Shown here one piece after another: positions 54,327 to 60,939 of a stretch of 64,000 nucleotides of DNA (position 1 is the first letter of the stretch; every line of letters begins with the position of its first letter). The translations under genes were made by a program, and so were the position numbers. The notes under the pieces are model-generated. The model searched no databases. It worked only from the letters and a program-made list of their open reading frames with translations, and was not told where the DNA came from. This stretch comes from Enterococcus dispar ATCC 51266 (GTDB lineage: Bacteria; Bacillota; Bacilli; Lactobacillales; Enterococcaceae), in assembly GCF_000406945.1 (NCBI RefSeq), contig NZ_KE136354.1:301607-365606 (forward strand), in the 5' to 3' direction.

Positions 54327-57300
54327 ATGTCTGGTGGGACACCGTTAGGAAATATGGTCATTAAATTAGGTTTAGACGATGCCGATTTTGGCAGAGGCGT
54401 TGCGAACTCGAAAAAGCAAGTAAGCTACTTTGCAAAAGAAATGCAAGCGAATATGAAGATAGCTGACATGGCTGGAAATTCACTTGGTAAATTGCAATCT
54501 AGATTTGGTTCTTTGACCAACATTGTTCAGGCGCAGGAAAAACAAGTTAATGCTTTAAAAACAGCATACGACAAGTCATTTGATGAGAATGGCAAAGCAA
54601 CAGAAGCGACAAAACGTTACGCAGCACAATTACAAGCCGCGAATGGGAAACTAGCGGATTACAAACAACAGCTAATTCAATCCGCTGGAGCCTTAGCAGA
54701 ATATAAGGTTAAAAATGAAGGTTTAACTGGGGCGATTTATAAAGGCTCTGAAAAAATGATTTCTGCTGGAAGCAAAATGGCTTCTGTGGGATCTAAGTTA
54801 ACAGCAGGTTTAACCTTGCCGATTGCTGGCGCAGCAGTAGCCGTTGGAAAAGCTGCTATCTCGTGGGAATCGGCGTTTGCGGGGGTGAATATTTTGCCCT
54901 CCCTTATAGCGATATAGGGGTAATTAAATCGAGCAAAAACGGTGAAGACTAAGGGTTTATGGTATAATAAGAAATGTAGGGGTTTTTATTATGCCTAAAT
55001 CTATGTTAATACCGTGCTAACTTACTAGATTTCGCAAGGCTAGTAAGCAGTGTAGAGCGTAGGAGCTGAATAAATATAATGCTCCCAAGAGTGTTCGAGG
55101 ACTATTTGATAGTCCAAAATGTACGCCGAGCTTACAGGAAACTGTAAGAAGTGAGGGATAAAAAGCCCACACGATAACAAAACTGGAAGAAAACCAATGA
55201 CGAGGTAGTTGATAGTACCGGTCAAGTCGTATATTCTTACAAAGATTTAGAAAATGGATTAAGAGGGTTGGCGAAAGAACTTCCAGCTAGTCATGCTGAA
55301 ATTGCAAATGTTGCGGAAGCTGCAGGGCAGCTCGGCATTCAAACTGAAAATGTCACTGCATTTACTAAAACGATGATTGATATGGGTGAATCTACAAATT
55401 TGTCTGCAGAAACAGCAGCGACAGAGCTGGCACGATTTGCCAATATCACACAGATGTCACAGAGCAAATTCAGCAATTTAGGATCAGCAATCGTTGATCT
55501 TGGTAATAACTTTGCGACGACAGAAGCGGAAATCTCAGCAATGGCTTTACGACTCGCGGGTGCTGGGTCACAGATTGGCATGAGTGAGGGTGATATCCTA
55601 GGCTTTGCGGCCGCACTATCATCAGTGGGTAAACATCAATGCCCAGTCGTTAAGAAATTAGCGGCTTAAAACATCAAGTGAATTCATGGAAAGCTAAGGT
55701 TATTTAAATATGGTATAATGGGAGTGTGGCTAGGGTAGCTCCCGAACGACAAGTACCCGCTTGTCTGCCACAAATTTTAATGGGTGGTTACTTGGGAGGT
55801 AATCGAATGACAAGAAGAAAATTTACTGATTCTTATTTTAAGAAATTAGTATTTGAACTGGTAGCAGATGAGTATACTTTTATAGAACCTTATAAAGGCA
55901 TTACGAAAAAACTAGCAGTTCGTCATGAAAAATGCGGGCATCGATATGAAACTACGCCTTACCATTTTCTGGACAGAGGGCAACGTTGCCCAAATTGTAA
56001 CTATATGCGCAAAAGAACACCGGAAGAATTCGAAAAAGAGTTTCATGAAGCTTTAGGTGACGATTATGAAATCTTGACACCTTATAAAGGTGCTAGAGAA
56101 AAGATAAAAGTTAGGCACAAAATTTGTGGATGTGAATACTTGCAAACAGCAAGTGAGGCAAAACAGGGAAAAGGATGCCGTAAATGTTCAATAGAGAAAT
56201 TCATAGGTAACCGCCTGAAGTCTGAAAAAAGGTTCATCCAAGATTTTGAAAGGGTGTCAAACAGCGAGTATCAGCTTCTGTCTAAATATGTTAATGATGG
56301 TGAGTATATAAATGTAAAACACAAAGATTGTGGTTTAGAATATTCAGTTGTAGCTGGAGCTTTCTTAAATGGGAGGCGATGCCCCAAGTGTGGAATAATA
56401 AATCGAGCAAACAAGCAACGTAGAACACATGAACAGTTCGAAAAACTTGTCTTGGAATTAGGGATAAACGAGTACGCTGTACTTGAAAATTATAAAAATT
56501 CTCAAATTCCGATAAAGCTTAAGCATCTATCTTGCGGGCATATTTACTCAGTAAGACCAAACGATTTTTTGCGAGGGAAACGATGTCCAAAATGCAATCA
56601 AAGTCATGGAGAAACAAAGATATACCAGCTACTATCGAACTACAACATAAAATTCACAACACAATACAGATTTAGCAATTGCAAAGCAAAACGATCGTTG
56701 CCTTTTGATTTTGCGATTTTAGATGCCAATGAAACTGTTGTTGCAGTAATCGAGTATCAAGGGATACAACATTATCAAGCAAATGATTTTTTTGGTGGCG
56801 AAGTTGCATTTAAAAAAAGACGAGAACACGATGCTATTAAAGAGAATTATTGTAAAGCTAACAATATTCGGTTTGTTGAAATCCCATATTCAATGACCGA
56901 TAAAGAAATAGAAAAAGCCATATTTGAATTAACTATGCCAATCATGAGCCAAGCCTGTCGGGAAACTGCAGGAAGGTGCAACGACTAGATAAATTAACCT
57001 AAGCAAAAGCAGTCATTTATTTGATTGCTTTTTTTGTATGGCGAAATATCCACGAGCGCTTGATACCTTAACGTTTAAGGCGAAGGTAATGATATAGTCT
57101 GAACTTATAGGAAACTATAAGAAGCAAAGGATAAAGAGCCTTTGCGATAACATAATTGGTTGAAGCGGAAGCGGGTAAACAGAACTGCCCGACTGTTTGG
57201 AAACAAGCAGCATAGAAATCGGCAAAATCGGTAGAACACTCACGTAGTCAATACCGAGGTAAGCAGAAACATCATCTGCCACCGTAGAGCATAGGAGATG

Positions 57301-60300
57301 AGCATTAAGAGAGCAATAATTCTTCCACGAGTGTCGATTGCCCTAACAAGTAAAGTTGAGGGTAAAAATATATGCCGAACTTACTGGTGACAGTAAGAAG
57401 TAGAGGATAAAAAGCCTTTACGATAACAATTGGGTTCTGCATTTTCAAAAGTAATGGTAAATATGCAGTTAGCTGTAGAAAACGGTGTAGGTGCATTTGA
57501 TGAATTATCCGCAATGGGGTCAAAAGCTGGTATCTCTTTATCTGATATTTCAAAAGCGGTTCAAGATGGCGGAAAAAATCTTAAGTCTACTGCTAGTCAA
57601 ATGGGATTGACAAATACACAACTTCGCTCGATGTACAAAGAAGCTGATAAGTCTGCAATTGCTTTAGAGAATTTTTCTAAAGTGGCGGGATTAACAAATG
57701 CGGAATTTGCAGACCTGTTTAAAAAGGACCCTTCAAAAGCAATTATGAAATTTGTTGAAGGTTTGTCCCACGCGGAAGAAAAAGGAACTTCTGCCATTAA
57801 AGTTTTAAATGACATGGATATTAAAGAAGTTCGTCTACGTGATAGCTTGCTTCGCGCTGCGAATGCGAGCGGTGTATTCGGTGATGCAATCGCTACTGGT
57901 AACAAAGCTTGGAAAGAAAATACTGCGTTGACAGAGGAAGCGAGCAAGCGTTACGAGACTACCGAATCAAAATTAAAAATGCTAAAAAACGAAGCTGTGG
58001 ATGCTGCGATTGAATTGGGTGGCCCACTTATCGATGCATTGCGTGATGGACTGCAAGCTAGCAAGCCTCTAATAAAAGGTCTGGGAGATTTAGCTAAATC
58101 ATTTAGCTCGTTAGATAAAGAGCAACAGCAAAATATTATTAAATGGGTAGGTATAGCTGCTGCAGCAGGTCCAGTTTTATCAATTGCTGGAAAATTAACT
58201 GGTGGTATCGGTAAGCTAGGTAAATCATTTATTGATTTAACAGCTAGTATGGCGAAGAAAAAAGCTATGACAGCTATGGCTGCTGAAATGGCTTCGGGTG
58301 CTGTATCTGCCACATCAATGGGTACTGCTGTAGCTGGCGCAGGAACGAAAGTTGGTTTATTCGGCAAATTAGCTGGCTTGGCTGGAGGCAAAGCCGGTGT
58401 GGGTGCTTTAACAGCTGGGTTATCTGGCGTTGCGGTTCCCGCAGCGATTGCTGTAGGCGGTGTAGCTGCTGTAGGTGTTGCCCTTTATGCAGCGAATAAA
58501 GCGTACGAATCAAATCAATTAGCTGGTGCACGTTGGGGTACGAAAGTCACTAAAGAGCAGGACAAAGTAATAAAAAAAGCTTACGAGTTAAACGAAAAGG
58601 CTTCTACGTATGTCAATGAATATGCAGATGGAATTGCTTCTTCTGCCGAAAAGGCGAAGAAAGCGAACCAAGAAATAGTTAATTCAATTCAAAAAGTTTT
58701 AGATAAAGAAATTGAACGCAAAAAAAAAGCTGCTGAAAAAATTACTGATGAAGATGAGAAGAAAAAAGCTGAAAATTATATTAAATGGCAAGAAACAGTT
58801 AATAAAGCAGAAGTACAGCAAGCAAAAAAGAAAGTTGATGCAATCAATCAGATACTAATAAATGCATCAAAAAATAATCGTAATCTATCAAATGAAGAGC
58901 GTCAATTTATTGCAAACAATTATAAGCTGTTAAGTCAGGATCAGTTAAAGGCTGCTGGATTTAGCAAAAAGCAACGTTTAGCAATTGAGACAGCATATCA
59001 AGCTGATGTGTCGAAATTAAATTATAAGGATTTATCAAAACGACAAGAAACTTTGCAAAATGCTTTGAAAGACGAAAAATCAGCCTATGAAAAACAAGTT
59101 GAAAGCCTAAAAACAATTTACGCTAAAAATCCACAAGCACTAAAAGCTTCAATGGATAAATTGAATAAAGAATACAAGCAATCTACTGATACTTTAGTGA
59201 CAGGATTAGCCAAAGTATTTCAAGCGCAAGGCAAAGATATTTCTCAACTGTCAGAAGTTTGGAAAGCGTATGGCTATACCACCGATGAAGTGTTATCTCT
59301 AGTCAATACGTCCGTTAAAGCATCGTCAGATAACTTAGATTTACTTGCTAAAGGTACCAGTGAAGCAGATATGGCATGGAATGCACTGGCGCTAGACCCC
59401 AAAACAGGCGAAGTCAAAACGAACATGGCTGAAACCTTAGTGGATATGGCAAAAACTGACGAAGGTTGGCAGCAACTGAAATTCATGTTAAAAAATGCCG
59501 ATATTGAATCTAATGCCAAAGAAGAAGTTGCGGTTGCAATGGGTCTTGCTGGCAAGTGGAACCTCATGTATATGTCAGACAAACTTTTAACAGTTAATGG
59601 AGACGAAGCAAAAGTAGCATTATACGACACTATTGATGAGTTAAAAGCTTGGAACGAGTATGAAGCTGATCGCAAAATTCTTGGTGCAGATAACGCGGAT
59701 GTCATATGGAAACTAATAGATTCAGAAGATAAGCTCAATGTTTGGAACACTATTCCAGCTTCTGATAAGAAATTACTTGCAGACAATACGGACTTTCTTT
59801 CTAAACTGCTCAATTCTGAAGAAGCTTTAAATCAATGGAAATCATTACCAGATTCTCAAAAGAAAATGCTTGCTGATAATTCTGATTTATTGGGCAAAGT
59901 ATTTGCTTCCACAGAATCCTTTAATGCGTGGGGGAAATTACCTGAGCCAATAAAACAAATGTTGGGGAATAACCAAGATATTTTGGCGAAAGTTAAAGAC
60001 GGAACTATATCTTTGCAAGATTACCAAAAAATAGAGCCAAACATTAAAAAACTTTTAGGTGATAGTAGTAGCGTTGTGAATGCTTCGAAATCTGGTGAAA
60101 AATCATTAAGGAGTTATCACGCGAATAACCCAGCAAAGAAAATCTTGCAAGGAACGTCTGCTAGTACACAAGCGGCCGCTAAGGCTGGTGAAGGGGCATT
60201 AAATCGATACCGTGGAAATAATCCTGCTCTAAAAAAATTACTAGGAAATTCAAGTAGTGTAGTTAGTGCATCGAATACGGGTGGGGTAGCTCTTAACCGC

Positions 60301-60939
60301 TTTAGAAATAACAATCCTGGTTCAAAAAATTTAAGAGCGATTGATAATGCTTCTGATCCCGCTAGATCAGCGATTGGCGCGGTTAATAACTTTAAGTCTG
60401 GTCCTTCTGTTATCACTAAAACACTAAATGTTGTTGCCAATTTAGGCAAAGGTGTAGCAAAGGTTTTAGGATTTGAAAAAGGTACTAATTACCATTTGGG
60501 CGGCCCAGCAATCGTAAATGACCAAAAAGGATTAACTTACAAAGAGTTAGTTTTGCCGAAAGGTGGCGTTCCATTCATTCCAGATGGACGGGATGTATTC
60601 CTTCCTAATCTACCGAAAGGCTCTAAAATCATTCCAGCTCGTCAAACTAAAAAATTAGTACCACATTATAAAGATGGAGTGGGTGTTCCTAAAAATTCTA
60701 CACTGGTTCGTAATTTGGAAAAGATTAACACTCAAAATAACTTATCGAAGACAGAAATAATAATTGAACCGGAGAATTACTCTGAACAGCTTAATCAGAT
60801 TATTAAATTGATGGGAAGATTTAGTTCGGATTTACAAAAACTTAAAATAGTAATGAATGAACGCGAAGTTGGCAGAATTATCACGAACGAACAAACAAAG
60901 AATAATAGAATGCAGTCAAGATTGGAGGGCTTAAGATGA
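54327..60939 (+). CDS. Tape-measure protein, four exons split by three group I introns
   Basis: Exons are 54327-54886, 55186-55630, 57159-57176 and 57433-60939. Joined they give 4530 nt and 1509 residues without a stop. The junctions restore conserved tape-measure motifs: WESAFAGV/KKTNDEV, then ALSSVG/VEAEAG/GSAFSKVM. Residues 1-150 are coiled coil; a hydrophobic segment lies near 160-180 and another in exon 4 (GLSGVAVPAAIAVGGVAAVGVAL). The C-terminal third has repeats of the NNPALKKLLGNSSSVVSAS type. It sets tail length and is ejected first. Unspliced RNA would give only 196 residues. Confidence 0.88.
54887..55185 (+). ncRNA. Group I intron 1 of the tape-measure gene (299 nt, no ORF)
   Basis: The 5' exon end GGGGGU pairs with the guide GCCCUC (P1) with a U.G at the splice site. 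Guide bases UUUU pair with exon start GAAG (P10). The intron ends in G (55185). Near the 3' end it has the hairpin CTTACAG-GAAA-CTGTAAG (55131-55148) and a second stem with loop ATAAAAAG. It also keeps TATGGTATAAT (54958-54968), as in intron 2. Confidence 0.85.
55807..56988 (+). CDS. Intron-encoded homing endonuclease, EDxHD type with zinc ribbons
   Basis: 393 residues. About four repeats of 65-70 residues, each with a CGH/CGL-x-Y...FL-x-G-xRCPxC zinc-ribbon pattern, are followed by a C-terminal nuclease domain. That domain has GETKIYQLL, LPFDFAILD, VIEYQGIQHYQ and RREHDAIKENYC...FVEIPY, which fit the Vsr-like EDxHD nucleases of phage introns such as I-Bth0305I. The zinc repeats probably read the long target site. 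ATG 55807 has GGGAGG 6 nt upstream; the longer frame has no site. Confidence 0.85.
   Translation: MTRRKFTDSYFKKLVFELVADEYTFIEPYKGITKKLAVRHEKCGHRYETTPYHFLDRGQRCPNCNYMRKRTPEEFEKEFHEALGDDYEILTPYKGAREKIKVRHKICGCEYLQTASEAKQGKGCRKCSIEKFIGNRLKSEKRFIQDFERVSNSEYQLLSKYVNDGEYINVKHKDCGLEYSVVAGAFLNGRRCPKCGIINRANKQRRTHEQFEKLVLELGINEYAVLENYKNSQIPIKLKHLSCGHIYSVRPNDFLRGKRCPKCNQSHGETKIYQLLSNYNIKFTTQYRFSNCKAKRSLPFDFAILDANETVVAVIEYQGIQHYQANDFFGGEVAFKKRREHDAIKENYCKANNIRFVEIPYSMTDKEIEKAIFELTMPIMSQACRETAGRCND
57006..57035 (+). terminator. Terminator of the homing endonuclease gene
   Basis: AAAGCAGTCA pairs with TGATTGCTTT (one G.T), loop of six, T run after. It lies inside intron 2, after the ORF. Confidence 0.65.
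57159..57176 (+). other. 18-nt micro-exon of the tape-measure gene
   Basis: GTTGAAGCGGAAGCGGGT encodes VEAEAG, exactly the residues missing between ALSSVG and GSAFSKVM in the tape-measure family. Its first bases pair with the intron 2 guide (P10) and its last bases CGGGT with the intron 3 guide (P1). Confidence 0.85.
57177..57432 (+). ncRNA. Group I intron 3 of the tape-measure gene (256 nt, no ORF)
   Basis: P1: exon CGGGU with guide GCCCG, U.G at the site. P10: guide CAGAACU pairs with exon start GGUUCUG over 7 bp. Terminal G at 57432. The 3' part has CTTACTG-GTGA-CAGTAAG (57380-57397) and GTAGAGG/CCTTTAC around ATAAAAAG, matching introns 1 and 2 in form with changed bases. Confidence 0.87.

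Follow-up and report, generated by a model that had tools for sequence, protein, structure and literature searches.

Evidence that a prophage tape-measure gene of Enterococcus dispar is divided by three group I introns

The tape-measure locus and its uninterrupted alleles

The window, that is, the whole stretch of DNA analysed here, comprises 64,000 nucleotides (nt) of the 2.82-Mb genome of Enterococcus dispar ATCC 51266 (G000:C1:301607-365606), and the subject is a prophage gene in it for a tail tape-measure protein. The gene is very probably made up of four exons interrupted by three group I introns. The parts are arranged as follows.

54327..54886, forward strand: tape-measure exon 1, 186 codons plus 2 nt, 3′ end GCGGGGGT
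54887..55185, forward strand: predicted group I intron 1, 299 nt, without an open reading frame (ORF); site 1, after FAGV
55186..55630, forward strand: tape-measure exon 2, 3′ end TCAGTGGGT
55631..57158, forward strand: predicted group I intron 2, 1528 nt, with an endonuclease ORF in the P5 region; site 2, after SSVG
57159..57176, forward strand: exon 3, a microexon of 18 nt encoding VEAEAG, 3′ end GCGGGT
57177..57432, forward strand: predicted group I intron 3, 256 nt, without an ORF; site 3, after VEAEAG
57433..60939, forward strand: tape-measure exon 4

The exons of 560, 445, 18 and 3507 nt add up to 4530 nt, or 1509 codons and a stop, and introns 2 and 3 are only 18 bases apart. The initial annotation had described three breaks whose removal restores one frame of 1509 residues; these coordinates hold, and natural intronless alleles match the exons. 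Exon 1 matches the PHROG families phrog_4704 (163 bits) and phrog_1293 (156 bits), and exon 4 matches phrog_1293 with 841 bits. Judged by this family, which is matched on both sides of the introns, the gene product is a tail tape-measure protein.

The tape-measure gene is uninterrupted in a genome of the same genus, G044 (L003/L180), where the open frame in L003 is 1514 amino acids (aa) long, and in the viral contig L023. Compared with the intronless L180, exon 1 is 98% identical in aa, and exon 2 is 84% identical and has full-length tblastn matches in relatives. In exon 4 the first 218 residues and the first 300 nt are each 100% identical to L180. The site 1 junction of L180 reads GCTGGGGT|CAAAAAGACA and its exon 2-3-4 junctions read GTAGGT|ATTGAAGCAGAAGCGGGT|GGTTCTGC (bars added).

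The exon pieces were also placed on 108 related loci, a set with some redundancy in which L004 and L024 belong to the window itself. At 66 of them the gap between the homologues of exons 1 and 2 is 3 nt (the split codon) and that between exons 2 and 4 is 18 nt, so that at base resolution neither intron region holds an insert. Exactly 18 nt separate the exon 2 and exon 4 homologues at 80 of the 108 loci, and the microexon is therefore real. At the remaining loci introns are present, a piece is absent, or the alignments overlap; negative gaps are such overlaps and not introns. Extra introns were considered and rejected in loci of the L025 type (gap 294, n = 6) and in L073, L081 and L099 (gap 318). 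L025 is open across the region, L081 and L099 read open, and the gaps reflect a divergent exon 1; this was read directly on L025, L081 and L099, and the numbers of L073 are those of L099.

Group I core and pairing at the splice sites

Eight introns without ORFs, namely introns 1 and 3 of the window and those of L010, L101, L113, L112, L174 and L175, were aligned with MAFFT, and the helices P3, P4, P6, P7, P7.1, P8, P9 and P9.2 were drawn by eye on the alignment and then counted. The core contains 50 pairs in 386 cells, of which 98.7% are paired compared with 77.9% in shuffles, and both sides have changed in 31 of the 50 pairs compared with 17.0 (standard deviation, SD, 2.3). The structure was drawn from the same sequences and the shuffle control therefore favours it, so the measure that bears weight is covariation, with a score of 0.629 against 0.208 (SD 0.021); none of 500 shuffles was as high on any of five measures. 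When the helix partners are shifted, pairing falls to 30-44%. Changes on both sides are found at 4 of 7 pairs in P3 and at 1 of 5 in P7 (GCGUA/UACGC versus GCAUA/UAUGC).

An extra helix, P7.1, is the mark of subgroup IA. A helix of this kind lies between P7 and P3 in introns 1 and 3, with 5 pairs, 40 of 40 cells paired and 4 pairs changed on both sides, and by this predicted fold the two introns are of subgroup IA. In this alignment with six relatives, introns 1 and 3 have one common covarying group I core with a P3/P7 pseudoknot.

Intron 2 matches the Rfam family RF00028 with 53.6 bits (cutoff 50), the only Rfam match at a gathering threshold in the window. The match starts at 56766, inside the endonuclease ORF, since the ORF sits in the intron; the strands of the core are P3 at 55673-55680/57057-57064, P7 at 56983-56987/57095-57099 and P8 at 57065-57069/57083-57087. 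P3 of intron 2 is ATCAAGTG/CGCTTGAT. Its counterpart in L172 is ATTAAGTG/CGCTTAAC, where 7 of 8 positions pair, and that in Lactobacillus phage JCL1032 is GCTAGTG/TGCTAGC. The group I identity put forward in the initial annotation is thus supported by a P3-P7-P8 core that covaries in introns 1 and 3, and in intron 2 by a score over the Rfam cutoff.

The splice sites agree with this class. Every 5′ exon ends in GGGT, whose last base can form a U.G pair with the guides GCCCUC, GCCCA and GCCCG, as had been noted; moreover, of the three guides the cognate one forms the most stable P1 duplex with each exon (-9.2, -7.4 and -8.4 kcal/mol for exons 1, 2 and 3). Exon 3 pairs with the guide of intron 2 at -6.0 kcal/mol compared with -8.4 kcal/mol for its own. 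The P10 helices of 4, 5 and 7 pairs also stand, with energies of +0.9, -2.5 and -8.3 kcal/mol for introns 1, 2 and 3, and all three introns end in G.

Signs of mobility and occupied sites in other phages

Further features lie inside introns 1 and 2.

54960..54968, forward strand: promoter-like TGGTATAAT in intron 1, found by eye and read as a relic of the lost ORF
55711..55719, forward strand: promoter-like TGGTATAAT in intron 2, found by eye, 5′ of the leader and the endonuclease ORF
55722..55787, forward strand: int-alpA-like structured leader between TATAAT and the ORF (RF02996 31.6 bits, cutoff 35.8)
55807..56988, forward strand: predicted EDxHD homing endonuclease, 393 aa, with the ribosome-binding site GGGAGG

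The TAG stop of the endonuclease ORF overlaps the P7 strand. Residues E269, D301, H322 and D342 are invariant in 21 sequences, although the patterns used to fetch the relatives already covered the regions of D301 and H322; in a second alignment E269 is replaced by S in 1 of 5 sequences (L178). The protein has a Vsr-like nuclease fold, with 18% identity to I-Bth0305I (PDB 3r3p) in a structural alignment. By motif and fold we predict an EDxHD (I-Bth0305I/Vsr-like) homing endonuclease, which would be expected to cleave intronless alleles. The best PHROG label, 'HNH endonuclease' (phrog_559), was set aside because motif and fold favour EDxHD. A sequence search of the PDB gave nothing useful for the endonuclease, and NCBIfam assigned it to no family.

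Intron 1 appears to derive from an intron with an HNH ORF that was later lost: its nt 1-84 and 89-299 match nt 1-84 and 979-1191 of the HNH intron of L101. Site 1 is occupied in L101 and L176 (G069) by introns of 1191 nt each, both with an ORF. NUMOD3 is above its cutoff in both of these ORFs, and HNH is above it in L176 and at 19.5 versus 21.4 bits in L101. The introns at site 1 of L174 (G105, 312 nt) and L175/L104 (Listeria cornellensis, 264 nt) are without ORFs. A neighbouring site 1b, after VDLG, is occupied in L171 (G039, with an HNH ORF) and in phage TPWB06 (L113), and site 3 is occupied in L010/L176, L101/L018 and L172 (G134). Site 2 is occupied only in the window's phage among the loci examined. 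The four insertion sites, after FAGV, VDLG, SSVG and VEAEAG, mark the front half of the tape-measure family as a repeated landing area. The exon sequence is divergent before site 3 and 100% identical to an intronless allele after it, a pattern expected from homing or recombination. Together with the intron 2 endonuclease behind a promoter-like site and a leader, and the apparent loss of an ORF from intron 1, the introns look mobile.

A scan of 395 genomes of the order, that of E. dispar among them, gave matches to intron 3 DNA in 12 genomes, to intron 1 DNA in 10 and to the endonuclease in 17, many of them partial. The intron stretch of L018 (G034, of the same family as the window genome) is that of L101, which is recorded as Enterococcus thailandicus. 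In Caldibacillus phage CBP1 (L112) a related intron adjoins a gene annotated as a TMP-repeat protein, and the exon pieces have no match there. The microexon pattern was found in the viral collection in the window's own virus only, a weak test of absence because the pattern demands exact letters at the intron end.

The site-3 intron of L172 (1621-2904) is a mosaic, the first 42 nt resembling intron 3 of the window and the rest intron 2, with a related endonuclease; guide and core may have been exchanged as modules. In phage TPWB06 (PQ358086, L113:2420-2673) a group I intron splits the tape-measure gene, and the record has two separate coding sequences (CDS). The phage is labelled Arcanobacterium, and its intron is nearly that of Staphylococcus phages such as DH5 and PG-2021_67. 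In L173 (G222) an EDxHD-type ORF (1204-2376) with a group I-like 3′ end lies between two long ORFs of one gene, at 185-1159 and from 2574 onward. The E. dispar genome itself holds a further group I intron at about 2297-2553 of L183 (G000:C1:2619000-2624500), with an RF00028 score of 30.9 bits, below the cutoff, and a GIY-YIG ORF (PF01541); by eye the gene that it splits resembles one for a phage terminase large subunit.

The leader of intron 2 is named int-alpA-like only, because it is below the RF02996 cutoff. Similar elements precede the ORFs of L172 (1708-1769, 33.8 bits) and L171 (3391-3461, 28.6 bits), and a model built from 12 leader elements, these three included, finds L101 at E 0.0022 and, weakly, L176 at E 0.12. 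At least 120 stretches of the viral collection contain the leader core GGCTAGGGTAGCTCCCGAA; RF02996 is above its cutoff in 6 of 12 chosen loci with this core. In 42 of 60 leaders, a set from which only identical hairpins were removed so that related sequences remain, the hairpin loop has a complement of at least 5 nt just downstream, compared with a mean of 11.0 and a maximum of 19 when the downstream parts were shuffled (n = 200). Many phage genes may thus be preceded by a leader with a pseudoknot, perhaps acting in translation control; the case for the three introns does not depend on it. The leader is not tied to EDxHD endonucleases generally, with 0 of 80 viral loci at E≤1 (80 kept of 566 relatives). 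The RF02996 search of our own genome gave nothing at E≤0.001, nor did it in any of 14 control genomes, so that search is uninformative. Outside introns, int-alpA-like leaders were also seen ahead of genes in many viral contigs and in Acinetobacter and Psychrobacter phages (loci L188-L307, L184, L185 and L186).

Proposed splicing, alternatives and known systems

The best explanation for the whole, to which we assign a probability of about 90%, is a gene of four exons and three self-splicing group I introns that look mobile. The guide of each intron would pair with the GGGU end of the preceding exon (P1), and a guanosine bound at P7 would cut after the U. The freed exon end would then attack behind the last G of the intron, helped by P10, and the exons would be joined. 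Removal of introns 2 and 3 would leave the 18-nt exon (VEAEAG) in the messenger, which is predicted to encode one protein of 1509 residues.

Several points weigh against this explanation. Splicing is a prediction from sequence. The P10 of intron 1 is weak, and 2 of its 4 pairs are G.U. P2 and P5 stand outside the pair count, since P2 is misaligned and P5 varies among the introns. The only other copy with all three introns (L024/L308; IMGVR_UViG_2541047447) is the same virus sequence, identical across 6800 nt, and not independent. In the Rfam search intron 3 scores 25.3 bits, below the RF00028 cutoff, and intron 1 has no match at E≤10, so that only intron 2 is recognized. The homologous introns of L174, L175 and L176 likewise have no match at E≤0.5, so that RF00028 is insensitive to introns of this type. 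Support for introns 1 and 3 therefore comes from covariation and from homologous introns at the same sites.

The introns could be of group I by descent while at least one no longer splices, leaving a broken gene and a tail-less prophage. The weak P10 and the lost ORF of intron 1 fit such decay, but almost every core pair in introns 1 and 3 is intact, the exons are open and the protein is conserved, and ORF-less introns at site 1 occur in relatives too (L174, L175). We regard this as unlikely.

Alternatively, introns 2 and 3 could act mainly as one unit, with exon 2 joined to exon 4 and the 18-nt exon usually lost. The duplex of exon 2 with the guide of intron 3 (-6.9 kcal/mol) is a mere 0.5 kcal/mol weaker than the cognate one, the strongest P10 belongs to intron 3, and losing the exon would not disturb the frame. 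Exon-skipped transcripts are also reportedly described for Staphylococcus phage Twort, in the title of a 1999 paper by Landthaler and Shub. Set against this, cognate pairing is best for each exon, and the VEAEAG-like residues are kept as an 18-nt stretch at most of the related loci, so full splicing is probably the main need. Usual loss of the exon is likewise unlikely; some in-frame skipping is possible, because exon 2 pairs nearly as well with the guide of intron 3.

Inteins, group II introns and frameshift regions can all interrupt a phage reading frame, but the chance that the inserts belong to one of these classes is practically negligible: lengths of 299, 1528 and 256 nt are not multiples of 3 and the first insert stops within 11 codons (its ORF ends at 54917), which excludes inteins, the one Rfam family at a gathering threshold is group I, the empty sites in relatives exclude frameshifting over such lengths, and the covarying group I core contradicts all three.

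Within the reading of three self-splicing introns, a more speculative proposal, which we find doubtful, joins several observations. Intron 3 would use the splice site of exon 2 as well as its own, which would make the 18-nt exon a cassette at the RNA level, and the prophage would produce two tape-measure proteins, both in frame, one with VEAEAG and one lacking it. Sites 2 and 3 would fall within one endonuclease-sized target, so that the introns shield each other from homing. The guide domain (P1-P2) would stay at its site while core and endonuclease are swapped, as in the chimeric site-3 intron of L172.

The comparisons add to the initial annotation the intronless alleles, the type of endonuclease, the origin of intron 1 by ORF loss and the chance that the 18-nt exon is sometimes skipped. 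The gene is a clean case in which three group I introns in one phage gene come with natural alleles that lack them, a relic of ORF loss and relatives in which only some of the sites are filled. Since the 18-nt exon is in frame, exon skipping by group I introns becomes testable without wrecking the protein. Genes split by introns in this way get annotated as several fragments.

Judged mostly by titles, the literature yielded no description of a tape-measure gene that combines an EDxHD endonuclease with an 18-nt exon in frame, and no title describing a three-intron tape-measure gene in Enterococcus. The 2004 paper on the intron of Lactobacillus phage JCL1032 reportedly has self-splicing in its title. 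In JCL1032 (EU409559) the tape-measure CDS is joined from two pieces, and the 3′ core of its intron is 77% identical to intron 2; it differs in having one intron, without an ORF and elsewhere in the gene, as the exon pieces do not align around it. I-Bth0305I differs from the window endonuclease by its 18% identity; the DNA-binding part of the latter has treble-clef-like repeats, and its activity is predicted.

In Twort, the tail tube gene orf142 is annotated as a join of four segments, with the remark that it 'contains group 1 introns' (AF132670; also MT151386), and has exons of 345, 41, 23 and 20 nt as deduced by comparison with an intronless homologue in phage P108. Like the gene in the window it is a structural gene with three introns and a tiny exon between introns 2 and 3; it is another gene, and its 23-nt exon is not a multiple of 3 whereas 18 nt is. 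The tape-measure gene is also split in Vibrio phage ICP1, where RNA sequencing and reverse transcription PCR showed a transcript of four exons and three introns, with homing-endonuclease genes in some introns and a content that varies between ICP1 isolates (PMC10448857). The host of ICP1 belongs to another phylum, the endonucleases are of the HNH-3 type, and the passage of that paper used here does not state the intron class (PMC10448857). The window gene differs from it in its EDxHD endonuclease, its 18-nt exon and splicing that is predicted only. With ICP1 and Twort as precedents, three introns and a tiny exon were both known before. To call three introns in one phage structural gene unusual, as the initial annotation did, is fair, though they are not unique, and the tape-measure gene of the E. 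dispar prophage is a good further example of a three-intron phage gene and not a new kind.

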